IMG/VR virus record: IMGVR_UViG_3300020450_000083
Coordinates: 1-25,468 of that record
DNA from: a virus
Length of the DNA: 25,468 nucleotides
Strand: one strand, 5' to 3'
Position numbers and translations under genes: made by a program
Part shown: piece after piece, positions 42-12,103 of the stretch
Layout of the letters: each line of letters starts with the position of its first letter
Numbering within the stretch: position 1 is the stretch's first letter
Notes under the pieces: model-generated
Database searches by the model: none
Told to the model about the DNA's origin: nothing
The model's input: the letters and a program-made list of their open reading frames with translations, nothing else

Positions 42-1400
42 CTAAAGTTTTACTATAACACGATCTTGCCAATCCCAACTGCTTGGCTGATAGTCACTAT
101 AATACAACTTTTTTGGAAGATTTTCAAGAAGTCTTTTGAGATTGTCTGTACCAGTGGCGTAATGTCCACCACCTATTGCTACCAATGATGCTTTTGGTTT
201 TACCTTGCTTTTGATCAACGCTCTTGGTATCCTATTACGTACAAAAATTACTTTTGTGTTATCAGATATCAATTTAAACTGTTTGCTCATTTGATGCAAC
301 TCATACAGATTCTGAAAGAAGTCTTGTGGCTTTTGATTATCTACCAACCAATGTTTTTCGTCCGTAAACTTATCTATATCTTTTTTGTATATTGGCTCTT
401 TGACGTCGAACCCCCAAGAACAATCGTTCAGTATATCTATGTTGTGCGATTTGAAAACGTTTAACCATTCCCAACAATTCCTCACATCCTCTTCCATGTG
501 TATGTCTCCACTCACAGGCATGATCAAAGGAAAACAGTCTAACTCTATAAGTCCTTTAATAACTTCATGCTTTGCAAAAGTTTTTGAGTCTATCCATAAT
601 ATGTGATTGTTGTTGTGTGCTATCTTTTTTCCCACTATGGTCTGTGCTGGAACATCGATACCGTTTGATTTTATGTTGAAGTTCTTTAAAGAATCCAATT
701 GATGCAACGTTGGTTTGTTTTTTAAGTTGGTGTTCCAATATTCTTCTAAACTTTCTGGTGCATCACTCAATACAATTTCTCCACCAATTAGTCTTGCTGT
801 TGGCTTCCTGTGTCCCATTATCTCTTTTTTAATTTCTTCGTAATCATTTAATAGGCTATCGTCACTAAATTTAAAATCATATCTCACTGCTATCAGAGTC
901 AAGTAGTAAGCAGTAACATCGGTGTGTAAGAAAGTCCATTTTTTAGATTCACCATCATACTGTGCATACATTCCAGGTAGGCCACGTTTGTCTTTTACAC
1001 ATCTAATCAATTGTATTACTTTCTTGTTGTATGGAAATCGCATCTCGATTTTCGTAACATTGTTCTCGTCGATATACTTTTCAATGCTTTTATCAAAACT
1101 GATAACCCGGAAATCATCATCGTACTTGGGGTTGTCCAGCAAGTCTTTGATGTCCATTCCGTGTGCTTGGAATTTGGTAAGGTATCTCTTCAGTAAAACT
1201 AGAGCCAATTTGGCCTGCTTTTCAGTCCAAGCATATTGTGATTCAGCCAGTGATTTCACTGTTGATAGGTCTTTTGGGTGTGGCTTAATTACGGTTGTAT
1301 TTCCTATCATCGAAGGATTTGCCCAAAAATAATCGTTATATGCTAGTATTTTAAGTGCTTCGTTTATTGTTTTTGGTAAATCTGTGTGCATATTGTCCAT
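42..1400 (-). CDS. Uncharacterised 452-aa protein, possible nucleic-acid enzyme with HARP-like segment
   Basis: I do not recognise a named family. Residues 56-73 (YAWTEKQAKLALVLLKRY) form a predicted helix of the kind found near the N-termini of phage helicase-like proteins. Residues about 115-180, with FPYN, a W-containing turn and alternating strands, look like the HARP-like substrate-recognition module that precedes some SNF2 helicase cores. No Walker A or DEAD box is visible, so the protein is not an intact helicase. The C-terminus has a glycine-rich GGGHYATGTD motif (around residues 410-420) and ends DWQDRVIVKL. It is the first gene behind a strong sigma70-like promoter and directly precedes the putative uvsW, which suggests early expression and a role in DNA metabolism. 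ATG at residue 1 is used; Met4 is an alternative. No clear Shine-Dalgarno precedes it. Confidence 0.8.
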   Translation of the reverse strand: MDNMHTDLPKTINEALKILAYNDYFWANPSMIGNTTVIKPHPKDLSTVKSLAESQYAWTEKQAKLALVLLKRYLTKFQAHGMDIKDLLDNPKYDDDFRVISFDKSIEKYIDENNVTKIEMRFPYNKKVIQLIRCVKDKRGLPGMYAQYDGESKKWTFLHTDVTAYYLTLIAVRYDFKFSDDSLLNDYEEIKKEIMGHRKPTARLIGGEIVLSDAPESLEEYWNTNLKNKPTLHQLDSLKNFNIKSNGIDVPAQTIVGKKIAHNNNHILWIDSKTFAKHEVIKGLIELDCFPLIMPVSGDIHMEEDVRNCWEWLNVFKSHNIDILNDCSWGFDVKEPIYKKDIDKFTDEKHWLVDNQKPQDFFQNLYELHQMSKQFKLISDNTKVIFVRNRIPRALIKSKVKPKASLVAIGGGHYATGTDNLKRLLENLPKKLYYSDYQPSSWDWQDRVIVKL

Positions 1401-1454: not shown

Positions 1455-1934
1455 ATGAAAAAGAAGAAAATAAACAAAAGTGTAAATGTCAAGAAACAAC
1501 TGAAGATCAAGTTGGAAAATACTCTGACTAGACACAGGAACGCAGTCGGCTTTAGACCCACAGAGGCCCAAGCATACAATTGGTTTAGGTATCTAAACAA
1601 GACACTATTCAACAGTAGATTACCAATGGTTCCGTTGTATATTAGGAATTTGCATAAAGATTGGGGTAGATGTGTGGCCAATTGGGACAATAGAAAAACA
1701 CCTAAAGGAAAATTTGATCAGAGAATTATACCTTACCATATCGAAGTTGAGTACTACATCGAACTACATCAAAAATTTCCTAAATGGAAAGATTTTATAG
1801 AAACGTTAGCACACGAAATGGTGCATCTATATCAAATGACATGGATCAAAGATCCTTATTCAAATCACAATGCAAACTTTTTTGCTTGGAGAGAAAAATT
1901 TAAAGCGTGTGGCCTAGGCCTGACTAGGTGTTAG
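1455..1934 (+). CDS. SprT-like zinc metalloprotease
   Basis: A 159-residue protein with the SprT/SPRTN-type zinc site: HEMVH at residues 120-124 (two His ligands and the catalytic Glu) and a downstream candidate third ligand His138 in SNHNANFFAW. The tryptophan-rich approach and lysine-rich N-terminus (MKKKKINKSVNVKK) suit a DNA-associated protease. SprT-like genes are common in marine phages; the cellular relative SPRTN cleaves DNA-protein crosslinks, but the phage role is unproven. ATG 1455 is preferred over an in-frame TTG at 1437, which lies inside the opposing promoter. It is the only plus-strand gene in the left 8 kb, and its last 21 bases overlap the end of the convergent DUF115-like gene. 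Confidence 0.85.
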   Translation: MKKKKINKSVNVKKQLKIKLENTLTRHRNAVGFRPTEAQAYNWFRYLNKTLFNSRLPMVPLYIRNLHKDWGRCVANWDNRKTPKGKFDQRIIPYHIEVEYYIELHQKFPKWKDFIETLAHEMVHLYQMTWIKDPYSNHNANFFAWREKFKACGLGLTRC

Positions 1935-2669
1935 TTCTTTCTTAAACTCCGCATAAGTTATAACTCTACTGTTACCTAAATCCGTTCCTGTCTGCAGGTG
2001 ATTCATATAATCAGGTGGATCGTCATGTACAACAGTGTAGTTGACGTAAGGTCTCATCTTCAACATGTCTCTGAATTGTTTTAGCCAACCTTCAAAAATT
2101 TTATCGTCGTGCCGTTCGCCATAACATTCTGTGTCCTGGTACATGTTGTTCAGTTGGTCCTTGCCGTACTCTCTGAAGTCATAGCCTAACAGATAGATGT
2201 TCTTGTGTCCATGCACACCGGCTGTCCAGAATGCCGCATTACCTGATATCCAGTGTGGGTTATTAGGAATGAGATGCAACATACCTTTGTTCTGTTTCCT
2301 GTTGACTTCCAGTGCCGGTGCATAGTGTATAGTCTTCAGGCCCACTTCGTCCTCACACATTTTCACTGACATCTTGGTGTCTACAGAAAAAATAAAATCA
2401 GGCATGAAGTCTCTGTACAATGCATTACACCCATATGTCTGTCCTGTTGCTTTGAGACTGTTAAGATCAAAATCTTTACGTGATGGTCCGTTACCTATGC
2501 AATAGGCATTGCCTCGAGGTACTGCCTTGACTTTGTCTTCGAAGAATTTCATCTCTCGTGTACGTTTGCCTTTTCTGATGATTGTATTAATACAAACTTC
2601 CTCTCCCTCATAGGGTTTCCATTCTATGGGTTTGACTTCAGGTTTTCCAGATAATGTTATAGTCTTCAT
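1914..2669 (-). CDS. DUF115/GT42-like protein (putative glycosyltransferase)
   Basis: A 251-residue protein. Residues 56-68 read YCIGNGPSRKDFD, followed by CNALYRDFMPDFIFSVD at 81-97. The pattern GNGPS, a short helix, then a Cys-Asn segment and a D at the end of a strand is the nucleotide-sugar-binding signature shared by Cst-type sialyltransferases (GT42) and the DUF115 family. Later segments (HWISGNAAFWTAG, IYLLGYDF) fit the same Rossmann-like core. Start ATG overlaps the previous gene's TGA (ATGA), so it is probably translationally coupled as the last gene of the seven-gene glycan operon. Donor and acceptor are unknown. The substrate need not be sialic acid, since many DUF115 proteins act on other sugars or have no known activity. 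Confidence 0.75.
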   Translation of the reverse strand: MKTITLSGKPEVKPIEWKPYEGEEVCINTIIRKGKRTREMKFFEDKVKAVPRGNAYCIGNGPSRKDFDLNSLKATGQTYGCNALYRDFMPDFIFSVDTKMSVKMCEDEVGLKTIHYAPALEVNRKQNKGMLHLIPNNPHWISGNAAFWTAGVHGHKNIYLLGYDFREYGKDQLNNMYQDTECYGERHDDKIFEGWLKQFRDMLKMRPYVNYTVVHDDPPDYMNHLQTGTDLGNSRVITYAEFKKELTPSQA

Positions 2670-3538
2670 TTAAGATATTTCTCCTCTAGTCTTTTCTTTA
2701 TCCTAGCCCATGGCAGGCCTGCCTCTATCTCGTCTTTGAACCATTCTGTGTAACTCAACCAGTTTGCCCAGTTCAATCTGCTAGGCATGGCCGGTGTGTT
2801 TATGTCTGCTAGTTTGATGTTACCGACATCATGGCACAGACTCGATTCGGAAACAAAGACAGGTATACCTCTGATGACGGCCTCCATTGCAGGGTTAGAA
2901 CTGTGGTTAACAACGGCCCATGTGCGTTCCAAAGTCACCTTGAAGTCTGTGTCGTCGTATGTCCTAAAATCTCTCTTAGGCATCCTCACTTTTACATTTT
3001 CAAAATCACTTTCCTTAAACTGTATCGTGTTTCTTGGGTGTGGTCTTACTAGTATCGGTCTTGTGGTGTACTTTCTGATTTCTTGTATCTGCTGTTTTAT
3101 CCACTTCTCCATTCTAGGAAGTCCTTTCCATTGTTCTGACGCATCGTGTTGTCCACATATGACGATCATGTCTCCTGTTGGATTCCATTGTTTTAGTGTG
3201 TGTTTGAAAAGTGGCCAACGTTTGTCGTCGAACTGTTGGTTGGCAAAATCTGCATCTCTGTTAATACCGTTTATTCCTATTTTAAAACTTTCGTTTCTTC
3301 TCAGTCCTCCTACTTCTAATACTATTACTGGCTTGCCTCTGCTCCTGTAGTCGTTCCAGATTCTTTTGTATTGTTCCATCCTGCCACGCCAGAGTACACT
3401 CCATATCACCGCCACGTCGGCATTGGCCGATTTATTTAGATATACAGTATCACCGGCGTCTTTGAGACTTTTAACGAAAGCGTCGAATATAGGTTTTGAA
3501 TTCAGTGGACCATACTCTGTCCATACTTCTAATCTCAT
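2666..3538 (-). CDS. GT-B-like capsule-type glycosyltransferase, paralogue A
   Basis: A 290-residue protein of a family that occurs four times in this window. The N-half has VIWSVLWRGRM and GKPVIVLEVGGLRR. The C-half has RPILVRPHPRN, then VVNHSSNPAMEAVIRGIPVF and an ADINTPAMPSR segment. The RPHP motif followed by a (T/H)xSS loop and GIPVF resembles the C-terminal nucleotide-sugar-binding half of GT-B enzymes of the capsule/Kdo-transferase and CDP-glycerol transferase type. That suggests transfer of a sugar or sugar-phosphate to a surface glycan, which is inferred. The start overlaps the upstream stop by one base (TAATG), so coupling is likely. It is closest to paralogue B by eye. Donor and acceptor are unknown. 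Confidence 0.75.
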   Translation of the reverse strand: MRLEVWTEYGPLNSKPIFDAFVKSLKDAGDTVYLNKSANADVAVIWSVLWRGRMEQYKRIWNDYRSRGKPVIVLEVGGLRRNESFKIGINGINRDADFANQQFDDKRWPLFKHTLKQWNPTGDMIVICGQHDASEQWKGLPRMEKWIKQQIQEIRKYTTRPILVRPHPRNTIQFKESDFENVKVRMPKRDFRTYDDTDFKVTLERTWAVVNHSSNPAMEAVIRGIPVFVSESSLCHDVGNIKLADINTPAMPSRLNWANWLSYTEWFKDEIEAGLPWARIKKRLEEKYLK

Positions 3539-4458
3539 TAGTTTCCTTGCTTTCCTTTTGCCACTTTGCTTACTATGTCATCTGCTTGTTTAGGGTCAAA
3601 CTTTATACCACCAAAGGGATCATAGGATTCTACATTTTGCCAGTATGACTCGTTCCTGTCACCACGCAAATCACTTTTACTACTTTTACCTTTGACTTTT
3701 CTCTTACCTTTCATGTGATCGATGTATGCACCTAATACACTGTTAATGAATACGTGATGCCCTTTGGCACCTGCACCTTTTCCTATATCTTCTCCGTCAT
3801 CAGGGGCAATACGTTTTATACACTGCCAGAACAGATAACTGTCATGCCATTCCAGTTCTTGAAATATTGTATCGTTGATATACATATCTGTCCAGTATTT
3901 CATGAATTGATCTGCTTTAGGATGTTTTGTATTGTAGCATACCCATCCACACTCCGGGTATTTTTCTCCACGTCCTAAAAAGTTAACAAGTTTTGTTTCG
4001 GGTAAAAGTCCCACAACAAACTCTTTTGTGATTGGTCTAAATGTATATGTGTCAGCATCTAGCCACAGCACATAGTCTGTGCTGGCATTCTTGATAGCAT
4101 GGTCAACAGCAAAAGTTTTATGGGCGAATCTAACAGCGTCCCATAGGTACGAACCTTTGCCACGATCATTTTTTCCGGCATTAGGATCTCTTCTCACGCC
4201 CCCGGCTATCTCGGTCACCTCACCGTTAGCAACAGGATCGTCCTTGTGCCTTTGTTTGAATTTGACCAGTTCTGGATTCGCTTCTTCTATGTTGATGTAT
4301 TTTATTTTTTTGTGCTCAAAGTTTGGTTTATCTCCTTCGTGGTATGCATGTATAATCACGTCGTCAGGCCAAAAATCAATATGACTTTGCAACATTCTCC
4401 TAGCATACGCATTCCATCTATTGGGAGGAAACGTGGTGATCACTGTCAGTGTTTTCAT
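3538..4458 (-). CDS. GT-A-like glycosyltransferase
   Basis: A 306-residue protein opening with a strand-rich N-terminus (MKTLTVITTF). DAD at residues 134-136, within VLWLDADTYTF, is the DxD metal and nucleotide-sugar site of GT-A glycosyltransferases. A segment around residues 155-180 (NFLGRGEKYPECGWVCYN) and HDSYLFWQC further on fit acceptor-side loops. The C-terminal 50 residues are basic and polar (HMKGKRKVKGKSSKSDLRGDR) and probably disordered or membrane/polyanion-facing. It sits between paralogues B and A with one-base TAATG overlaps on both sides, so it is made together with them. The sugar used is not predictable. Confidence 0.78.
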   Translation of the reverse strand: MKTLTVITTFPPNRWNAYARRMLQSHIDFWPDDVIIHAYHEGDKPNFEHKKIKYINIEEANPELVKFKQRHKDDPVANGEVTEIAGGVRRDPNAGKNDRGKGSYLWDAVRFAHKTFAVDHAIKNASTDYVLWLDADTYTFRPITKEFVVGLLPETKLVNFLGRGEKYPECGWVCYNTKHPKADQFMKYWTDMYINDTIFQELEWHDSYLFWQCIKRIAPDDGEDIGKGAGAKGHHVFINSVLGAYIDHMKGKRKVKGKSSKSDLRGDRNESYWQNVESYDPFGGIKFDPKQADDIVSKVAKGKQGN

Positions 4459-5441
4459 TATAGGCCTAACCTTTGTTTAAATCTTTTATAGACTGTGCCG
4501 TCTTTTATTTCTTGAATGCTCCACATCTTGTATCCGAGGTCGTTGACCCATTGTGTCCTATCAGGATATTCAGGAGTTTCTATGTTGTTGAGATTTGTGT
4601 TCGCTACAGGCCAACAGAGTGCAAGATCCGAGGTAACAAAGGTAGGGATTCCACGAATGCAGGAATCGACACTGGCAGTAGAATTGTGAGTAACAAAAGC
4701 ATGGCAATTATTTAAAGCCTCTTGGAAATGAAATCTATAGTGCTTTTTCTCATCTCCTGCAAAGTGTTTTTGTGTGAACTGTATTTCTACATCATCGGGC
4801 AGTTCTGCACTTCGTCCATCAATATTTGCAACATTGTTTGGATGTGGCCTCACAATAAATTTTCTATCTGTTATAGGTCTCAGTTTTTCATACACTCCAT
4901 TGAACCACTCGATAGGATCCATTTCGTTCATACTCCAGTTGTCCTTTGGTTGTAGTCCAAATAAGATAGGATCATCTTGATTTGACTTTCTCCATGGCTC
5001 ATACTTCACTTTAAATTTTTTAACCATCATTTCCCATCTATCACTAGGACTGTTATCTGATAAGAAGTCACCGTCATTCATTGGCGTGTACAATGACACC
5101 CTGAAGTGGTGGTCCGGAGATGTTGATACGTTTCCAAAACTTGACAGCAGTCCGCCATCAAATGTTATCAACGGAATCTTTTTTGCTCTGCAGTTGTTTG
5201 CAAGTTCTCTTCGTCTTCCTTTTGTGTGGTGCATCTGCCTATCTCCGCCGTAACCGAACATGGCCGCCATTGAGGCAGTTGGGATCATCTCACCCTCCAC
5301 AGTTGGCCCGGTCATGTGTTCATTCACTATGACTGCTTCGTCACCCGAGGCCTCTATGCCTTCTTTCAAGTGATACAAGAGATCATAACTGTTTCCCCGC
5401 TTACGATCCTTTACCGTCCTTCTAAATATTTCAACCTTCAT
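4458..5441 (-). CDS. GT-B-like capsule-type glycosyltransferase, paralogue B
   Basis: A 327-residue member of the same four-copy family and the longest of them. The N-half includes FGYGGDRQMHHTKG, RAKKIPLITFDGG and a presumed acceptor domain. The C-half carries RKFIVRPHPNN, VTHNSTASVDSCIRGIPTFV and a NIETPEYPDRTQW segment that align by eye with copies A, C and D. It is longer than copy A mainly through an insertion before RPHP. Its start overlaps the end of copy C by 11 bases, and its stop overlaps the next ATG by one base. The role in assembling a glycan is inferred from family resemblance and neighbours; the substrate is unknown. Confidence 0.75.
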   Translation of the reverse strand: MKVEIFRRTVKDRKRGNSYDLLYHLKEGIEASGDEAVIVNEHMTGPTVEGEMIPTASMAAMFGYGGDRQMHHTKGRRRELANNCRAKKIPLITFDGGLLSSFGNVSTSPDHHFRVSLYTPMNDGDFLSDNSPSDRWEMMVKKFKVKYEPWRKSNQDDPILFGLQPKDNWSMNEMDPIEWFNGVYEKLRPITDRKFIVRPHPNNVANIDGRSAELPDDVEIQFTQKHFAGDEKKHYRFHFQEALNNCHAFVTHNSTASVDSCIRGIPTFVTSDLALCWPVANTNLNNIETPEYPDRTQWVNDLGYKMWSIQEIKDGTVYKRFKQRLGL

Positions 5442-6240
5442 TGAGCATTCTCCAAGCAGTGCCGTCTGCCATTTCTTTAAGTGTCCAATTATTATATGCT
5501 AAACTTGAAAATAATGCAACTCTGTCGCCGTATATTGGGGTCTCAATCTTGCTGAAATCTGTTTCTGAAATGGGTGCGGCCGCACTATTGACAGGATCAC
5601 AGAATACAGGAACGCCATTGGTCAAACTGGCAACCATAGTGTTGGAATTGTACGTAACCATCGCATGATAATCATTCCAATTTATTTCGCTTTTATGCAC
5701 AGTCTTAGTTTCAATCTTAACAGTGGCACCTACATGGTCTTTAGCAACGATAGGATTGTAAGGTTTTTCTCTGATGTCAATTTCTCTATCTGTGTTTTCT
5801 TTTAATGTTTTAATAGTTTTATCTAACCAGTCTGTTGTATTAAAAAAATTTCCTATTGCATTTGTTGGGGGTAATACTAGAACTTTTTTTCCTTTTTTCC
5901 ATGGCTTCATGTCTTGCTTAAAATTTTTCTCATAACGATCCGAGGGCCTTTGTTGCAATATGTTTTGACAGTGTTTGTTTTTTGTTATCCTTAACCAGTG
6001 TGGTGTAACATGAGCATTAGTAAAGTAGCCATGGTCCATAAAGTAGAAATCTTTATTTTCCTTCTCACACTGTTTGTATATTTCGCCCGAGCCCGCGAGA
6101 ATTCCGTACATGGTCAACTGTTCTTTGGGCAGTTGTTTTAATTCACGGAAATGATAAATTTTTCCTTGTCCTGCTCCTCTGACAAAAGCATCTATATATC
6201 GTTGTGTCCTTGGTTTGGTAGTGTGTATGCCTGACAGCAT
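5431..6240 (-). CDS. GT-B-like glycosyltransferase, paralogue C
   Basis: A 269-residue copy, almost the same length as plus-strand copy D and its closest partner by eye. Shared features are a D-x-x-YF segment (MDHGYF here), HWLRITKNK, IDIREKPYNP in place of RPHP, then VTYNSNTMVASLTNGVPVF and KIETPIYGDRVALFSSLAYNNWT. The replacement of RPHP by REKP separates C and D from A and B, and probably reflects a different donor or acceptor. The start overlaps the stop of the 2OG oxygenase by one base. A function in glycan assembly is inferred. Confidence 0.72.
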   Translation of the reverse strand: MLSGIHTTKPRTQRYIDAFVRGAGQGKIYHFRELKQLPKEQLTMYGILAGSGEIYKQCEKENKDFYFMDHGYFTNAHVTPHWLRITKNKHCQNILQQRPSDRYEKNFKQDMKPWKKGKKVLVLPPTNAIGNFFNTTDWLDKTIKTLKENTDREIDIREKPYNPIVAKDHVGATVKIETKTVHKSEINWNDYHAMVTYNSNTMVASLTNGVPVFCDPVNSAAAPISETDFSKIETPIYGDRVALFSSLAYNNWTLKEMADGTAWRMLNEG

Positions 6241-6995
6241 TATCTTCTGTTTTCCTTTACTTCAAACATTTTACGCTTGGCGGCTCTGTTGAATTCAGCA
6301 ATGATATTAACACTTCTTCTATGTAGCATAGCATTTTGTCTAGCGGATACACTGTGTATACACTTCGTTGAGTTATTACAAAATGCAACTAGAGTGTTAG
6401 GTTTATATGGTACTGTCTTGACTATTTCACCCGCCTTGTCGCCAACGGCTCTACCACCATTTTTATTAACTTCTTGTATGTCAGCATCAGTCTTGTGTAT
6501 TTGAAACTCACCTCCTGTGCTTTGGTCATCCTTGTAAGGCATGTAAAGTAACGCCGCGTAAATTTCTCTAGGGTTGTCTATGTGTGGGGTTCTCGAACTA
6601 AAGTCAATAGGTTTGTGCATGACAGTCTGACAGTCTGTGCCAATCCAGTCGTCACCTTTGTCCCATCCTCTCGGACTCAAGGTATTCTCTAAATTTTCTA
6701 TGTGTGGTACAAGTCCACCAAATGCTTCTTGCATTTCCTTGTAGAAAGAAGACGAAGTATGATATTCCGTGAATTCTTTCCATGCATTGGAAACCTTTCC
6801 TGGCTTCAACATTTCATCTGCTTTGAGTCTGTGACAAATACCCGAGTCAAAAGGTTCGGTTGCCAACAGTTGATCCTTTGGCCATTCCCTTTCGAGACTG
6901 TCATAGATATCTTGTGGAAGTGCATCCTCGATTACGAAATGTGGATACGGTTCTAACACCAACGTTGGTTTTTTCTGTAGTACTGAATTGCTCAT
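6240..6995 (-). CDS. 2-oxoglutarate/Fe(II)-dependent oxygenase
   Basis: A 251-residue protein with the double-stranded beta-helix iron site: HID at residues 138-140 (HxD) and distal His214 in CIHSVSAR. An Arg in HRRSVN (225-230) is the expected 2-oxoglutarate anchor. Between them, STGGEFQIH (159-167) is the typical prolyl-4-hydroxylase-like strand. Such oxygenases are frequent in marine phages and hydroxylate proteins, sugars, lipids or nucleobases; here the setting among glycosyltransferases suggests modification of a sugar or its carrier. Its ATG overlaps the TGA of the GT61-like gene (ATGA), so the two are co-translated. Fold assignment is good; substrate unknown. Confidence 0.88.
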   Translation of the reverse strand: MSNSVLQKKPTLVLEPYPHFVIEDALPQDIYDSLEREWPKDQLLATEPFDSGICHRLKADEMLKPGKVSNAWKEFTEYHTSSSFYKEMQEAFGGLVPHIENLENTLSPRGWDKGDDWIGTDCQTVMHKPIDFSSRTPHIDNPREIYAALLYMPYKDDQSTGGEFQIHKTDADIQEVNKNGGRAVGDKAGEIVKTVPYKPNTLVAFCNNSTKCIHSVSARQNAMLHRRSVNIIAEFNRAAKRKMFEVKENRR

Positions 6996-8080
6996 TCTAG
7001 GTGCTCCATTATTTCTGGGATATTAATTTTGAAGTTGATCATGTCACTGAAACGTTTTATTCCTTTAGGCTTAGAGCCATTCTTTAAAGGAATTGGTTCT
7101 ACATCTGCCAAATATAACTTATGCTCTAGATCTAAATTATGTGATAACAAAGGATATACCTTTTTATGTATCATATTTTTATCTTGTATCTCTATGACTT
7201 TTGTTCCTGGTTGGCACCATAGCAAGTTAACTAATCCTGCTCCGTGAGCCGCAAGTATATGTGATGCTTCTGCAAAGGTTTTCATTTGGTTTCGTATTGG
7301 CATATTTTCTAAAGCAACAGTCTCCCAACCTTTTAATTTTAATAATAATTCATCGGAGTTCACTAGTTTCCTGGTCTTTGCTCCAGGCCTCAGCACTACT
7401 ATTTTCCTATGTGGCTTCACCCCTTTAAGATTTTTCAAACCTTTGAAGTGTCGTAGCCATGGAGCCAACGGCGGAACAATGACGCCATCCTTCGAATTAC
7501 TCATGCTTGGCACTAGCAGGTGTTTGAACTGCCATGTTTCTCCCTTGGGCATTGTCACTATCTTCACGTCAGGAAAAAGTGCTTTGCAAACTTTCTCAAA
7601 ATATGTACTGTGGTTTGCCATTATGAAACAGTATCTATTAAAATTCGTTGACCATCTTTTTTCCAACAGTCTGAATTTAGATATCACATCTATCCATATG
7701 TGCCACGGGTTCTTCCCACTTCCTTCATCTATTGGCAACCAAACGTAGGTATTAGTTTCGTTGAAACTTTCCTTCACTGGTGGCAGTTCGACAGACATGT
7801 TGTCTCCCCATTCCTTCCAGAGTGAATGTGTCTTTTGAGGTTTGCGTTTGCTCTGATGTGTCAGCGACCATACATATTCAGTTATCATTTTATTTTCTCT
7901 GGTCACTAGTAAAGGACAGGTATGGACCTTGCATTCATGGAACTCTGCTACGAAAGTTGGTAAACTTGTAAAGTGTGGGTCTATCGATTCGTGGTAAGGC
8001 ACTGTGTAGTTGTACTCAGGGTCAACCATTTCCCATCTATCAAGGAAATACTTCAGGGAGTTTATATTTTTTACTGACAT
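6992..8080 (-). CDS. GT61-like (DUF563) glycosyltransferase
   Basis: A 362-residue protein. Residues about 268-296 contain FAEASHILAAHGAGLVNLLW and PGTKVIEI, the HGAGL-anchored signature of GT61/DUF563 glycosyltransferases. NPWHIWID near 124-131 matches the preceding conserved block (a His followed by a hydrophobic strand) and LRPGAKTRKLVN the loop before the HGAGL strand. I chose ATG at 8080 (MSVKNINSLKYF). An in-frame ATG at 8182 would start 34 codons earlier but would lie inside the divergent SGNH gene and upstream of both promoters. It is the first gene of the seven-gene minus-strand operon, behind a TTGAAA-17-TATTAT promoter. Family members transfer xylose, arabinose or GlcNAc; the sugar here is unknown. 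Confidence 0.82.
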   Translation of the reverse strand: MSVKNINSLKYFLDRWEMVDPEYNYTVPYHESIDPHFTSLPTFVAEFHECKVHTCPLLVTRENKMITEYVWSLTHQSKRKPQKTHSLWKEWGDNMSVELPPVKESFNETNTYVWLPIDEGSGKNPWHIWIDVISKFRLLEKRWSTNFNRYCFIMANHSTYFEKVCKALFPDVKIVTMPKGETWQFKHLLVPSMSNSKDGVIVPPLAPWLRHFKGLKNLKGVKPHRKIVVLRPGAKTRKLVNSDELLLKLKGWETVALENMPIRNQMKTFAEASHILAAHGAGLVNLLWCQPGTKVIEIQDKNMIHKKVYPLLSHNLDLEHKLYLADVEPIPLKNGSKPKGIKRFSDMINFKINIPEIMEHLE

Positions 8081-8103
8081 TTTATTAATAATTATGTTAT
8101 AAT
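8074..8103 (+). promoter_or_regulatory. Sigma70-like promoter for the SGNH-FkbM operon
   Basis: CTGACA (8074-8079) and a perfect TATAAT (8098-8103) are separated by 18 bases. The predicted start is about 8110, one or two bases before the ATG at 8112. There is no room for a Shine-Dalgarno site, so the mRNA would be effectively leaderless. The -35 box overlaps the GT61 start codon. Confidence 0.6.
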
Positions 8104-8127
8104 ACACGATCATGATATTATTTTCAA
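8099..8127 (-). promoter_or_regulatory. Sigma70-like promoter for the seven-gene glycan operon
   Basis: On the minus strand TTGAAA (8127-8122) is followed after 17 bases by TATTAT (8104-8099). Each box has five of six consensus bases. The predicted start is near 8092, about 12 nt before the GT61 ATG at 8080. The -10 box overlaps the -10 box of the opposing promoter, so the two polymerases would compete for the same site. Confidence 0.5.
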
Positions 8128-8774
8128 ATGGATGTAGTTTTTTAACGCCCAGACCAAAAGACGGTGTGGAAACATTTACCACAAAGGTAATTGCGGAAAA
8201 TTATGGCATGGATCTAGCAAACTTGGCCATGGGAGGCAGGGGTAACACAAGGATAGGATTCTCCACTAAAGTTTGGGTAGAACAAAACAAGGACAAAGAT
8301 ATTTTTGCCGTTATAGGTTGGTCTAGTGCAGTCAGGAACGATTACATCACAGACGACGGGTGGAAAAAAGGACGTATACCAGGCACGGATCTTACTTGGA
8401 GGACCTGGAAGACATTAGATAATGTGAGTTTTATACGAAGTAATAAGGGGTGGGATATAGAAAACAATCTCACTATGAATTTCCTTGATAATGTTTTTGA
8501 CTTACAGAACTATTTTGAACGGAAGCGAATACCTTATGTCATGTACAACTCTCTGCCTAACGATTTTGGAAACGGCACAGAGGACTTCCATGTGATCAGA
8601 AATGCGATCAACATGGATAGATTTTTCAGTCCAAAGGTGAGCCACCTTGAATTCGTTTCTGATAAAAAATTAGTAGTGAGCCCACACGATCCTCATCCGT
8701 CGGCAGATGGACACAAACAATGGGCCGAACAACTTATGGAATTCATAGATGCTAACAATTTACGCACCATTTAA
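8112..8774 (+). CDS. SGNH/GDSL-like hydrolase
   Basis: A 220-residue protein with the ordered SGNH blocks: NGCSF at residues 6-10 (Ser9 candidate nucleophile), NLAMGGRGN at 37-45 (Gly and Asn of the oxyanion hole) and DPHPSADGH at 193-201 (candidate Asp193 and His195). The block close to residue 1 makes ATG 8112 the natural start. Relatives are esterases or acetyl-transferases that add or remove acyl groups on sugars and lipids. Beside glycosyltransferases and methyltransferases, a role in decorating or deacylating a glycan is reasonable but unproven. It is the first gene of the plus-strand operon, probably translated from a nearly leaderless mRNA, and its end overlaps the next gene by 26 bases. 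Confidence 0.8.
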   Translation: MILFSNGCSFLTPRPKDGVETFTTKVIAENYGMDLANLAMGGRGNTRIGFSTKVWVEQNKDKDIFAVIGWSSAVRNDYITDDGWKKGRIPGTDLTWRTWKTLDNVSFIRSNKGWDIENNLTMNFLDNVFDLQNYFERKRIPYVMYNSLPNDFGNGTEDFHVIRNAINMDRFFSPKVSHLEFVSDKKLVVSPHDPHPSADGHKQWAEQLMEFIDANNLRTI

Positions 8775-9561
8775 TAACAAGAACAGCAAGGCATATGAAG
8801 TGTTTGACGGTGTACAGAAGTCCTGGCCGGAACAAACTAAACTGTTAAACAATCAAACGGAAATAGAACCTGTAGCAAACAGCATGTTCTGGGGATTCGT
8901 TGGGAACAACAAAGCAATGGTCAAAAAACTTGAAGCACGTAAGCATCAGTTTTGGTTCACAGATACACCGTACTTTGGAAGATTTGACAACAACAATCTG
9001 AAACCTGACAATCATTATTGGCGTATTTGTAAAAATAAAATTCATGCGCCGTACATTAAGATGTGTAAATCTGATAGGTTTGATAAATTTGGAATTAAAA
9101 TTAAAGCACCTGACTTCAAAGGCAGTTATGTATTGGTATGTCCTAGTTCGGCCGGTATACATGATTATCTAGACAAACCAAACTGGACGAATGAAATTGT
9201 GGAGCAGATCAAACGATACACAGACAGGCCAATAAAAATTCGACACAAACCACGTGGTAGGGGAACATCAGGACCAAGTGAGGCAACAGTTCCATTATCC
9301 GAGGACCTTAAAGATGCTTGGGTGTGTGTAACAAGTTGTTCCATCGCGGCTGTTGAAGCACAGTGCATGGGCATACCTGTAATATGTGATGAAAAAAGTT
9401 TTGCTAAAGAAGTAGGAGGACAAGAACTTTCAGATATTGAAAATCCTTATTTTGTTGGCTGTGAGGATTGGCTTTATAGTCTGGCATATCAGCAGTTTAC
9501 ACCTGAAGAAATTGCCAACGGAAAAGCAGTGGAAATATTAATGGACAAAGGTCTGCTATGA
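8749..9561 (+). CDS. GT-B-like glycosyltransferase, paralogue D
   Basis: A 270-residue fourth member of the GT-B-like family, on the opposite strand from the other three. It has a TDTPYF segment, HYWRICKNK, IKIRHKPRGRG (the RPHP/REKP position), VTSCSIAAVEAQCMGIPVI and SDIENPYF with DWLYSLAYQQFT. These match copy C in order and spacing, which points to an old duplication followed by inversion or separate import. The ATG at 8749 sits 26 bases inside the SGNH gene with a GGAAT stretch upstream. Its TGA overlaps the next ATG (ATGA). Activity as a surface-glycan transferase is inferred. Confidence 0.72.
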   Translation: MLTIYAPFNNKNSKAYEVFDGVQKSWPEQTKLLNNQTEIEPVANSMFWGFVGNNKAMVKKLEARKHQFWFTDTPYFGRFDNNNLKPDNHYWRICKNKIHAPYIKMCKSDRFDKFGIKIKAPDFKGSYVLVCPSSAGIHDYLDKPNWTNEIVEQIKRYTDRPIKIRHKPRGRGTSGPSEATVPLSEDLKDAWVCVTSCSIAAVEAQCMGIPVICDEKSFAKEVGGQELSDIENPYFVGCEDWLYSLAYQQFTPEEIANGKAVEILMDKGLL

Positions 9562-10199
9562 GTATAGAACAACTATCTGGTGGTTTATGGGTGCCATCAA
9601 ATGATGCACAGATAGAACAATGGCGTGAAAAAGGTCACCCTTATATGCAGGATACCTGTCTTGACAAATTGATAGAGTGGTGCAAAACAAACGACAAGAA
9701 ATTTAATCATATAGTTGATATAGGAGCATGGTGCGGTACTTGGACGTTATCTATGCAACAGTATGCAAAAAATATTCATTGCTATGAACCTAACAACTTA
9801 CATTATGGATGTCTTGCAAGGAATATAACTCCATGCAGTCATGTGGAATCATATAACCAGGCAGTAGGCAACGAAGATGGGTTTGTAAAATTAACAGAAG
9901 AAAGTGCCACCCAGAACACCAGAGTGTTGCTAGAAAAAGGTGAAACAAAAATAAACAAATTAGATTCCTTAGGATACAAGGATGTAGATTTTATTAAGAT
10001 AGATGTCGAAGGCTTAGAAATGGAAGTACTCAAGGGTGCGGCAAGAACTTTAGATAACGTTGAATACCTGATGATTGAACTGAACGGAAACAGTGAAAGA
10101 TATGGCAGTAGTAAAAAAGACATAAAGGAACATTTGAAATCTCTAGGATTCAAAATATTGATAAAATCCTGGCCAGACATTGTATACACTAAAGCATGA
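9558..10199 (+). CDS. FkbM-family methyltransferase 1
   Basis: A 213-residue class I SAM-dependent methyltransferase. The SAM-binding loop is VDIGAWCGTW at about residues 53-62, followed by an acidic E77 in CYEPNN. IKIDVEGLEMEVLKGA at about 145-160 is the diagnostic FkbM block, with the D-x-E-G-x-E pattern. FkbM proteins O-methylate sugars or polyketides, and in phages and bacteria they often accompany glycan genes. The start has a good AAAGG ribosome site and overlaps the previous stop (ATGA). Both ends are coupled to neighbours, so it is part of the four-gene plus-strand operon. The methyl acceptor is unknown. Confidence 0.88.
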   Translation: MSIEQLSGGLWVPSNDAQIEQWREKGHPYMQDTCLDKLIEWCKTNDKKFNHIVDIGAWCGTWTLSMQQYAKNIHCYEPNNLHYGCLARNITPCSHVESYNQAVGNEDGFVKLTEESATQNTRVLLEKGETKINKLDSLGYKDVDFIKIDVEGLEMEVLKGAARTLDNVEYLMIELNGNSERYGSSKKDIKEHLKSLGFKILIKSWPDIVYTKA

Positions 10200-10813
10200 T
10201 GTACGAACATTTAAAAAAAATCAAAGCAGAACACAGTTTCTCACCGACAAAAATTTTGGATATAGGTGCAAACATAGGCATCTGGACTAAAAATGTAAAA
10301 TCAATATGGCCCGACGCAGAATATACTTGCATAGAAGCAGGTCCAAAATATGAGAAGCATTTAAAAGAAATTGCCCATAACTGTCACATCGCTGTGCTTG
10401 GTGATAGCAATAAAGAAATAAAAATGTATCTACGTGAAATAAACAAGGGAAGCAAAAAGAAGGTCACGTACACAAAAGGATCGACAGTGTTTGGTATTTT
10501 CAAAGACTATGAGATCAGACAGATGCAAACTTTGGATCAATTGGTTGGTAAGGACGCACAATTTGATTTGATCAAACAGGACGTCCAAGGTGCAGAAATC
10601 ATGATAATGAATGGTGCTCCAGATATATTCTCTCGTGCCAAATATGTAATACAAGAAGTTAATGTACACAAAGATCAAAAGTTCCCTGAGATGCCTTCAG
10701 AAAATGAGATGGATGAGTACATGTTTCAACTAGGATTCAATAACAGTGAAGTGATCGAACAGAAAGAAAATGTTGATCAGATAGATAAAATATATTTTAA
10801 TTTTACGAACTAA
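10196..10813 (+). CDS. FkbM-family methyltransferase 2
   Basis: A 205-residue second methyltransferase directly after the first and clearly diverged from it. LDIGANIGIW (21-30) is the SAM loop, E47 in CIEAGP is the ribose-binding acid, and LIKQDVQGAEIMIMNGA is the FkbM block with Gln replacing Glu in D-x-E/Q-G. Two tandem starts (ATG ATG) exist; the first overlaps the upstream TGA. The stop lies inside the 5' arm of a rho-independent terminator and overlaps the convergent GT8-like gene by 11 bases. Two different FkbM enzymes suggest two methylated positions or two sugars. Confidence 0.86.
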   Translation: MMYEHLKKIKAEHSFSPTKILDIGANIGIWTKNVKSIWPDAEYTCIEAGPKYEKHLKEIAHNCHIAVLGDSNKEIKMYLREINKGSKKKVTYTKGSTVFGIFKDYEIRQMQTLDQLVGKDAQFDLIKQDVQGAEIMIMNGAPDIFSRAKYVIQEVNVHKDQKFPEMPSENEMDEYMFQLGFNNSEVIEQKENVDQIDKIYFNFTN

Positions 10814-11477
10814 AAAGATTTATTAGTTCTTTTTTCCAGTCGTCACCATACTCACAGTCACGATACCCATCAAACCATGGACCACCTTCTGTGTAGTGCA
10901 GTATTTTTGGCGAGCCATCTCTAGGCTCCTTATACCAACCCACCAACCAGTTGTATTCTAATGGCAAGGATCCTATTTCGTTATCTTCTAACCAACTGAA
11001 CCTGTGTAGGAATTTTGGTGACTCTTCGTTCAGTAATTCTGGAGTTAATATCTTATTTTTAGGATGTTCGCAGTTCCAAAGTACCATACTGCTCCAGTTT
11101 TTTCTTGGATATACTGTTTGTGTTTGTCCGTCCATCTTCGTTGTCTCTTTTGGTGTGTAATCATGCTGTACACAAACCACTGCTTTAGAACTATCACAAT
11201 ATTTTACAAGTTCATGACTTGGAACTTTCCAAAGAAAATCACAGTCACAAAATACCGCCCACCCTTTGAAATCATTTAGGTATGGTACAAAAAATCTTGT
11301 GAATGTAAATTCAGTCGATGCAAGTTTATCTACAGGCCGTGTATACAGTCCTTGATCTCTCATCTGTTTCTGTTTTAATGGAATGACTTCTGCTGACGGG
11401 TCTCTTCTTTTAATACTGTGTTCACAGACTTGGTATGCTATATCTTCTCTGCTGTCGTGTCCAACGTATATTTTCAT
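10803..11477 (-). CDS. GT8-like glycosyltransferase
   Basis: A 224-residue GT-A-type enzyme starting MKIYVGHDSREDIAY. DCD at residues 78-80 within AVFCDCDFLW is the DxD donor/metal site. A His in LHYTEGGPW near residue 200 matches the C-terminal metal-ligand position of GT8-like enzymes. I use ATG 11477, which overlaps the TGA of the HAD gene (ATGA), rather than a start 12 codons upstream that would read back into that gene. It is the last gene of the operon that begins at gp32, not part of the glycan island's own operons. Donor sugar and acceptor are unknown. Confidence 0.8.
   Translation of the reverse strand: MKIYVGHDSREDIAYQVCEHSIKRRDPSAEVIPLKQKQMRDQGLYTRPVDKLASTEFTFTRFFVPYLNDFKGWAVFCDCDFLWKVPSHELVKYCDSSKAVVCVQHDYTPKETTKMDGQTQTVYPRKNWSSMVLWNCEHPKNKILTPELLNEESPKFLHRFSWLEDNEIGSLPLEYNWLVGWYKEPRDGSPKILHYTEGGPWFDGYRDCEYGDDWKKELINLFSS
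10807..10835 (+). terminator. Rho-independent terminator of the plus-strand glycan operon
   Basis: A perfect 7-bp inverted repeat, GAACTAA (10807-10813) and TTAGTTC (10823-10829), encloses a 9-base loop and is followed by six T (10830-10835). It begins within the stop region of FkbM-2 and lies entirely inside the last codons of the opposing GT8-like gene. There is no T-run on the minus strand after the stem, so it should work in the plus direction only. The stem is AT-rich, so strength is uncertain. Confidence 0.65.
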
Positions 11478-12103
11478 TTTCTTCCTGATACAATTCGATG
11501 TATGTCTTGCCAATTATTTACTCTGGTGATCTCAGGATGATCAAAGTCTCGATTGTATGGGTGGTCGATTAATATAGTCTTTAAACCGTATTTGAGCCCG
11601 GTTACAGCGTTCTTAGGCTTGTCCTCGACCCAATATAGTCCGGTGTTGTGAAACTCCGCTAACGCCGAATCTTTGTCTGCCCCTGTGTCTAGAATATGGT
11701 AATTTGTAAAGATGTGATCACCAAATAATTCACCTAAACGTTTTTTCCTTACTGTTTGTGCCGGGATATCAGAAGTCTGAGATGTTATTGGAATAAAAGT
11801 CCAACCTTCTGCGGCCAATAATTTTACCCATGTTTGTGAATCTGGCATTGGACATTGTGTAGCCATCCAAGCACTTTTATTGAATTCTCTTATCTCTTTT
11901 CGTATTTCCGGTATAGTCAATCCAAAACGTTCTGCCATTTCGTATGTGTTTTCTTTATTTGGCAATAGTTTGTATGGATATATTCTTTCTTCGTTATCGT
12001 TGTAGTATGAACGTTGTAACATCCAATCTGTGAAATGCTTTTCCCATTCTAGCAGTACGCCGTCCACATCTGTTAGAATTATTCTACTATTTGATATCGG
12101 CAT
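11474..12103 (-). CDS. HAD-superfamily phosphatase/5'-nucleotidase-like protein
   Basis: A 209-residue protein. Motif I is LTDVDGVLLEW, with Asp12 as nucleophile and Asp14 as acid. Motif II is the Ser/Thr in FIPITSQT, and WVEDKPKNAVTG followed by KTILIDHPYN supplies the acidic motif III/IV region. This is a complete HAD core with a helical cap between about residues 20 and 95. HAD proteins of this size dephosphorylate nucleotides or sugars. Its place between recombination genes and a glycosyltransferase fits either nucleotide salvage or sugar-phosphate handling. It overlaps the 153-aa gene by 17 bases upstream and the GT8-like gene by 4 downstream. Confidence 0.8.
   Translation of the reverse strand: MPISNSRIILTDVDGVLLEWEKHFTDWMLQRSYYNDNEERIYPYKLLPNKENTYEMAERFGLTIPEIRKEIREFNKSAWMATQCPMPDSQTWVKLLAAEGWTFIPITSQTSDIPAQTVRKKRLGELFGDHIFTNYHILDTGADKDSALAEFHNTGLYWVEDKPKNAVTGLKYGLKTILIDHPYNRDFDHPEITRVNNWQDIHRIVSGRK

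Follow-up and report, generated by a model that had tools for sequence, protein, structure and literature searches.

Islands of glycosyltransferase genes are common in ocean viruses, where they are usually labeled as lipopolysaccharide (LPS)-related. The described systems close to the island analyzed here include bacterial enzymes and a mycobacteriophage pathway. Transferases of 3-deoxy-D-manno-oct-2-ulosonic acid (Kdo) bind cytidine monophosphate (CMP) through a (K/R)XHP motif (PMC12887879), and the retaining ones hold their nucleophilic Asp in a QXXXD motif (PMC10148158). Maf enzymes can move Kdo from CMP-Kdo onto Ser/Thr residues of proteins (PMC11339370). In mycobacteriophages, at least as the work is cited in PMC12619734, phage transferases decorate virion proteins (Freeman 2023). 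Our island lies in IMG/VR virus record IMGVR_UViG_3300020450_000083, whose whole stretch of 25,468 nucleotides is referred to below as the window, and its genes form two divergent arms (A1 to A7 and B1 to B4) followed by C1 (Table 1). We found that fold, profile, and gene neighborhood converge on CMP-keto-sugar, Kdo-type chemistry for this island, and that the kit recurs in unrelated phages.

The first line of evidence comes from four GT-B proteins, A2, A4, A5, and B2. Profile–profile comparison finds them homologous with probabilities of 99.1 to 99.95 (hhalign, 99.3 to 99.7% for A2 against its paralogues and 99.95% for B2 against A5), and by this sequence measure they are true paralogues. We then relied on an AlphaFold model of A5, with a predicted local distance difference test (pLDDT) score of 85, A5 being the sole paralogue whose model backs the shared two-domain fold. 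When this model was compared to the PDB, all 13 matches at E ≤ 0.001 were the Kdo transferases KpsC, WbbB, or KrkA, with a best Z of 10.2 for this group versus 6.9 for the next. Among predicted viral proteins, its matches include K4JVV7 from Caulobacter phage CcrColossus and "capsule polysaccharide biosynthesis" proteins from Tetraselmis virus 1. Independently, the four families combined into one profile matched the KpsC modules of bacterial genomes with a P of 1.4e-7 over 202 columns, the A2 profile alone reaching 2.3e-5, while unrelated island families used as a control gave values between 0.03 and 0.4. A PDB sequence search with two GT-B profiles produced no relevant match, KpsC being reached only by fold or profile–profile comparison. 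Relatives of B2 also occur in phage Mosig and in Caulobacter phages.

The phage paralogues therefore have in common with KpsC (GT107), WbbB (GT99), and KrkA (GT140) the fold (Z of about 8 to 10), the profile match, a Ser motif, and, in A2 and A4, the CMP-binding motif in the form of an invariant RPHP. In contrast, this motif is RXKP in A5 (REKP) and B2 (RHKP), and the proteins are shorter and phage-encoded. They also lack the QXXXD nucleophile, which is why we do not file them under GT99, GT107, or GT140. The Asp of a "DGG/DHG" motif was considered as the nucleophile and dropped, since the literature places the nucleophile in the missing QXXXD. On these profiles and models, the four paralogues look like CMP-keto-sugar transferases that lack one defining feature of retaining Kdo enzymes.

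The second line of evidence comes from A1, a DUF115 protein. Its model (pLDDT of 81) matches Maf (5mu5) with a Z of 11.0 and the GT42 sialyltransferases CstI and CstII with Z of 9 to 9.6, the best Foldseek E being 0.003. The PDB matches of the A1 profile are GT42 chains with E of 0.006 to 0.01, plus one weak unrelated row at E of 0.19. The GNGPS and SG regions of A1 align with GT42, while the catalytic His region falls outside the alignment. A1 thus shares with Maf flagellin glycosyltransferases and GT42 (DUF115) a fold (Z of 9 to 11), the GNGPS motif, and a weak GT42 sequence match, but it is a short, single-domain, phage-encoded protein whose catalytic residues could be compared in part. Because Maf and GT42 enzymes are also users of CMP-keto-sugars, these matches together with the KpsC-type folds and profiles mean that five predicted transferases of the island (A1, A2, A4, A5, and B2) point to CMP-keto-sugars.

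Were CMP-Kdo the donor, its synthetase might be encoded in some islands, a prediction that we examined. The 44 virus records nearest the window contain no CMP-sugar synthetase. However, the divergent relative L086 (NZHE01000029.1), which is also among the IMG/VR virus contigs and carries uvsX, uvsY, and ssb, has a KdsB gene directly after the A5 homologue, the two genes overlapping by 26 bp. The product of this KdsB gene reaches 196.7 bits for KdsB subfamily NF003952, whose cut-off is 193, and stays below the cut-offs of other KdsB models, and every PDB match listed for it is a KdsB. KdsB recurs in contig L130 and, at 68% identity, in L131. The cultured cyanophage S-SCSM2R carries a C1 homologue (49% identity), KdsB, KdsA, and two 2-oxoglutarate (2OG) oxygenases within 7 kb. 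The layout of the KdsB-bearing divergent islands (positions 4145 to 10319 of L086, and L131) is rearranged, with A4 and A5 on the other strand and the SGNH and FkbM genes missing.

The remaining genes were assigned to families as follows. A7 matches PF04577 (GT61) at 2.2e-21 (77 bits for a cut-off of 27), while B3 and B4 match the FkbM model TIGR01444 at 3e-22 and 2e-14 (79.6 and 54.1 bits for a cut-off of 37.7), B4 also matching PF05050 at 6e-14, and both have an invariant DxG in the S-adenosylmethionine motif. A6 falls just under the PF13640 cut-off of 27 (2e-5 and 25.8 bits), and its HxD...H...R metal and 2OG site is invariant in 53 to 54 of 54 sequences; the label "DNA endonuclease V" that PHROG 274 gives to this 2OG family was rejected as misleading and could mislead annotation. 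A3, which has a homologue in Mosig, shows a weak GT2 match (PF00535 at an E of 0.001, under the cut-off) and a DxD in 70 of 70 sequences. B1 matches DUF6071 under the cut-off of 27 (5e-5 and 23.5 bits), its GCS and DPH blocks being invariant in 80 of 80. Solved structures searched with the A3 and SGNH profiles gave no match. For C1, the DCD motif is invariant (71/71), identity to the Mosig homologue is 46 to 47%, and that homologue matches PF01501 at 3e-7.

A sequence-only reading of this DNA had proposed eleven genes, nearly all for sugar enzymes, that could build and decorate a whole surface glycan. All eleven are present, but a twelfth gene had been left out: C1 overlaps the last FkbM gene by 11 bp and belongs to the same kit. 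That most of the genes encode carbohydrate enzymes has stood, as has their linkage in two divergent operons, since the profile searches did not put most of them outside carbohydrate-active families and the linkage is conserved among relatives. The CMP-keto-sugar theme, the twelfth gene, and allele swapping go beyond that reading. However, a kit able to build a whole surface glycan is not what the window contains, since no lipid-carrier starter, flippase, polymerase, membrane protein, or nucleotide-sugar synthesis was found in it. Hydropathy detects no transmembrane segment in any island protein and no sign among them of the membrane flippase or membrane transferase that is the hallmark of gtr-type O-antigen conversion. 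The island encodes cytosolic enzymes that depend on activated sugars, most of them supplied by the host.

We next determined how widespread the island is. Searching viral contigs with A7 gave 80 loci, and a divergent B2 gave 80 further loci that partly overlap; after removal of duplicates, island genes were found in 147 contigs, the block being syntenic in about 147 distinct contigs. We counted 86 of these as spanning the island because A1, A2, A7, and B2 are all present, which makes the presence of A1 in every one of them a matter of selection. Among genes outside this criterion, A3 and A4 are found in 86, A5 in 85, the SGNH gene and B3 in 77 each, and C1 in at least 68, a lower bound set by contig ends. 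Others are optional: A6 (45 contigs), an NAD-epimerase (38), an asparagine-synthase (AsnB)-like gene (37), and B4 (36), followed by GDP-mannose dehydratase (GMD; 10), radical SAM (8), and a second SGNH gene (8). The AsnB-like glutamine amidotransferase gene sits between A4 and A3 (positions 10979 to 12721 of contig L019, and 36 other spanning contigs) and is possibly a sugar amidation step. When phages at large were searched with GT61 and SGNH, no deposited phage matched. The ratio of nonsynonymous to synonymous substitution (dN/dS) is 0.015 to 0.070 wherever computable between the window and two close relatives, values that are rough because dS is near saturation but are similar to those of uvsX and uvsY. 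The island is under purifying selection and, given this ratio and the synteny, is not a chance string of open reading frames (ORFs).

Within this conserved frame, A5 and A3 each split into two deep types, A5 identity to the window being about 75 to 90% in one and 37 to 44% in the other. The types of the two genes are linked (53/3 versus 0/29, Fisher 1e-19, relatedness not corrected); type I is associated with the 2OG gene (3e-10), and GMD is found exclusively with type II (6e-6). Even among contigs that share 93% or more uvsX identity with the window, A5 identity spans 41% to 90%, while median identities of A1 and B2 are near 80% in both groups and those of A2 are 60 to 77%. Judging from these sequences, it looks as if cassettes are exchanged within a single phage lineage, much as in the surface-antigen loci of bacteria, with serotype-like allele sets.

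Where related kits lie in other genomes bears on what they act upon. In Caulobacter phages CcrColossus (gp126 to gp131) and CcrSC (gp169 to gp174), as in the island, a DUF115 gene, a KpsC-like pair, a C1-type GT8, and a methyltransferase run in one direction. Unlike the island, these kits are compact, include a GT9, lack GT61, SGNH, and 2OG genes, and sit between a tail gene, which they directly follow, and lysis genes: the order in CcrColossus is tail protein, A1-like, two KpsC-like, C1, methyltransferase, and GT9, then endolysin, holin, and spanin, and CcrSC has the same arrangement up to the lysozyme gene. Podovirus ctDrO704 has a methyltransferase gene, annotated FkbM, and C1 flanked by the gene for the major capsid protein on one side and that for a virion structural protein on the other; in podovirus ct7QV12, the genes just ahead of terminase, portal, and capsid are an A3 homologue, a methyltransferase gene, and one that is KpsC-like; and in a prophage the order is protease, capsid, KpsC-like, FkbM, and C1. 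The Mosig island has C1, KpsC-like, A3-like, and FkbM genes in common with ours, but pelagimyophage and Mosig islands belong to another phage lineage, comprise a smaller set at another location, and have been read as modifying the O-chain, which is untested. Likeness to the mycobacteriophage system, as far as it is cited in PMC12619734, is only proposed, the island differing in its CMP-keto-sugar theme, its Maf/KpsC folds, and its much larger kit, known here from genes.

The sequence-only reading had left open whether the island alters the host envelope or coats the virion. Sister kits within capsid, tail, and terminase modules of unrelated phages tilt the balance toward the virion, without settling it. 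We therefore favor, tentatively and at a little under an even chance, a soluble cytosolic CMP-keto-sugar (likely Kdo) kit that glycosylates a phage-made virion protein and gives it a swappable, serotype-like coat; this preference is based on the fold and profile matches, on KdsB in relatives, on the Maf precedent for Kdo on protein, on the lack of transmembrane segments, and on the Caulobacter phages, the two podoviruses, and the prophage in which such kits adjoin virion genes. The donors of A1, A2, A4, A5, and B2 would be CMP-activated keto-sugars, with CMP-Kdo the most likely; it would come from the host pool or, in some relatives, from a phage KdsB. C1, GT61, and GT-A enzymes would attach further sugars, and the FkbM methyltransferases, the 2OG oxygenase, and the SGNH enzyme would decorate the product. 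The most likely acceptor would be Ser/Thr of a phage-made virion protein, glycosylated during assembly. The donor sugar, the order of steps, the acceptor, and the benefit to the phage are what we infer.

Several observations weigh against virion decoration with Kdo. The island genes do not adjoin virion genes in the lineage of the window, Mosig, DLP6, or S-SCSM2R, and the genomic contexts were gathered by similarity rather than evenly sampled. A bacterial genome (L223, positions 3466 to 8600) has FkbM, 2OG oxygenase, and KpsC-like genes by a putative integrase. The folds are predictions, and the QXXXD nucleophile is absent in four of four paralogues (QPKDN in A4, QHDAS in A2, PPTNA in A5, and SSAGI in B2). 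KdsB is rare, being present in 2 of the 86 spanning islands; the majority would therefore use host CMP-Kdo.

Modification of the host envelope is a close rival, a serious possibility to which we give roughly one chance in three. The same enzymes would extend or cap host LPS or another lipid-linked surface glycan in the cytosol before its export, hiding receptors from progeny or competing phages on the dying cell. KpsC, WbbB, and KrkA indeed act on capsule or O-antigen glycans (PMC12887879 and PMC10148158), pelagimyophage glycosyltransferases have been interpreted as surface-modifying (PMC7029224), and both the serotype-like allele sets and the bacterial locus in L223 fit such a role. However, no membrane protein, flippase, or polymerase was found in the island, the sister kits lie within capsid, tail, and terminase modules, and S-SCSM2R carries KdsA and KdsB, although the LPS of examined marine Synechococcus strains is without Kdo (PMC4515613).

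It is improbable that the island is a glycan kit whose KpsC-like copies use other donors, such as CDP-alditols or UDP/GDP-sugars. The missing QXXXD, the H-to-K change in two paralogues, and the GMD and epimerase cassettes of other islands would suit it, but two independent methods (fold and profile) select Kdo transferases, RPHP is invariant in A2 and A4, a relative has KdsB inside the same operon, and A1 likewise falls in a CMP-sugar family. DNA can be a substrate of phage glycosyltransferases and 2OG enzymes, but DNA hypermodification, in which the 2OG enzyme would hydroxylate a base that the transferases glycosylate for protection from restriction, is very improbable because the match reported for A6 is to the P4H-like PF13640 and none is to TET/JBP, about half of the islands lack the 2OG gene, the folds of the transferases match glycan enzymes whose substrates are proteins, sugars, or lipids, and the island has no nucleotide-modifying gene.

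The layout of the locus is as first described. The eleven ORFs at 1914 to 10813 form two divergent arms, with neighbors overlapping by 4, 1, 11, 1, 1, and 4 bp in the left arm and by 26, 4, and 4 bp in the right. The 31-bp gap between the arms holds if the GT61 gene begins at ATG 8080; an alternative upstream GTG start at 8182 would overlap the opposite arm. This form of the gap is retained in most close relatives, and its conserved A+T core, in which both strands carry TATAAT-like sites, makes it a possible two-way promoter. The T4-type late promoter TATAAATA has one match in the window versus 1.5 expected.

Table 1. Genes and intergenic gap of the glycan island, with positions in the window
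Feature	Position	Strand	Basis
A1, DUF115, Maf/GT42-like transferase	1914..2669	-	Fold and weak GT42 profile match
A2, KpsC-superfamily GT-B paralogue, invariant RPHP	2666..3538	-	hhalign, KpsC profile
A3, GT-A-like glycosyltransferase, invariant DxD (D134, D136)	3538..4458	-	Motif, PF00535 below cut-off
A4, KpsC-superfamily GT-B paralogue, invariant RPHP, QPKDN replacing QXXXD	4458..5441	-	Profile comparison
A5, KpsC-superfamily GT-B paralogue (REKP)	5431..6240	-	AlphaFold model, PDB fold matches
A6, 2OG-Fe(II) oxygenase, P4H-like	6240..6995	-	PF13640, HxD/H/R residues
A7, GT61 glycosyltransferase (ATG at 8080)	6992..8080	-	PF04577
Divergent 31-bp gap, TATAAT-like sites	8081..8111	.	Sequence, conservation
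B1, SGNH hydrolase-like	8112..8774	+	DUF6071 below cut-off, GCS...DPH
B2, KpsC-superfamily GT-B paralogue (RHKP)	8749..9561	+	hhalign to A5
B3, FkbM methyltransferase	9558..10199	+	TIGR01444
B4, FkbM methyltransferase	10196..10813	+	TIGR01444, PF05050
C1, GT8-like glycosyltransferase	10803..11480	-	DCD motif, phage homologues

The window, a 25.5-kb fragment of an uncultured virus, also carries tail sheath, tail tube, head-closure, terminase, ssb, uvsX, and uvsY genes. Its uvsX is 70% identical to that of Sinorhizobium phage Phosso and 69% to that of Agrobacterium phage Atu_ph07, and its terL is 55% identical to that of PA5oct and 47% to that of Phosso. By these genes, this marine virus is related to the jumbo phages of Sinorhizobium and Agrobacterium, and identity as a T4-like pelagimyophage was rejected. 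Phosso keeps the order terL-ssb-uvsX-uvsY-uvsW, with three annotated ORFs between uvsY and uvsW and no island gene among them, while in about 147 related contigs this interval holds the island, which thus has a definable place in the backbone. An SprT-like metallopeptidase gene (1437 to 1934, + strand; PF10263 at 1e-8) marks the island edge in nearly all relatives, overlapping A1 tail to tail by 21 bp. It is divergent from the gene at 42 to 1400 (- strand) for a conserved 452-residue protein, between island and uvsW, that has no match in Pfam or PHROG. Three contigs of this phage group (L086, L084, and L085) have been binned into metagenome-assembled genomes labeled Rickettsiales, Verrucomicrobia, and Flavobacterium, which is phage sequence in bacterial bins. 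Their apparent bacterial "homologues" were rejected because L084 and L086, on which uvsX/uvsY are present, are phage contigs; L085, a fragment of 5.7 kb, has island genes only.

The kin of both backbone and kit suggest, from sequence, an alphaproteobacterial host. A broader and more doubtful proposal, which we consider unlikely as it stands, is that phages of Alphaproteobacteria share a dedicated cytosolic pathway of protein O-glycosylation. In it, a virion protein would receive a Kdo-type sugar from a Maf-like initiator, divergent KpsC-superfamily transferases lacking the known nucleophile would extend this sugar, and cassettes would swap the decoration in the manner of serotypes. If true, this would give viruses a first Kdo-type glycoprotein pathway and the Kdo-transferase fold a new mechanistic branch. 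Since some kit-bearing phages are cultured on Caulobacter, a virion coat and a change of the host surface could be told apart in the laboratory. If the virion is indeed the target, phages would have, in serotype-like coat switching, a counterpart of the surface antigens of bacteria.

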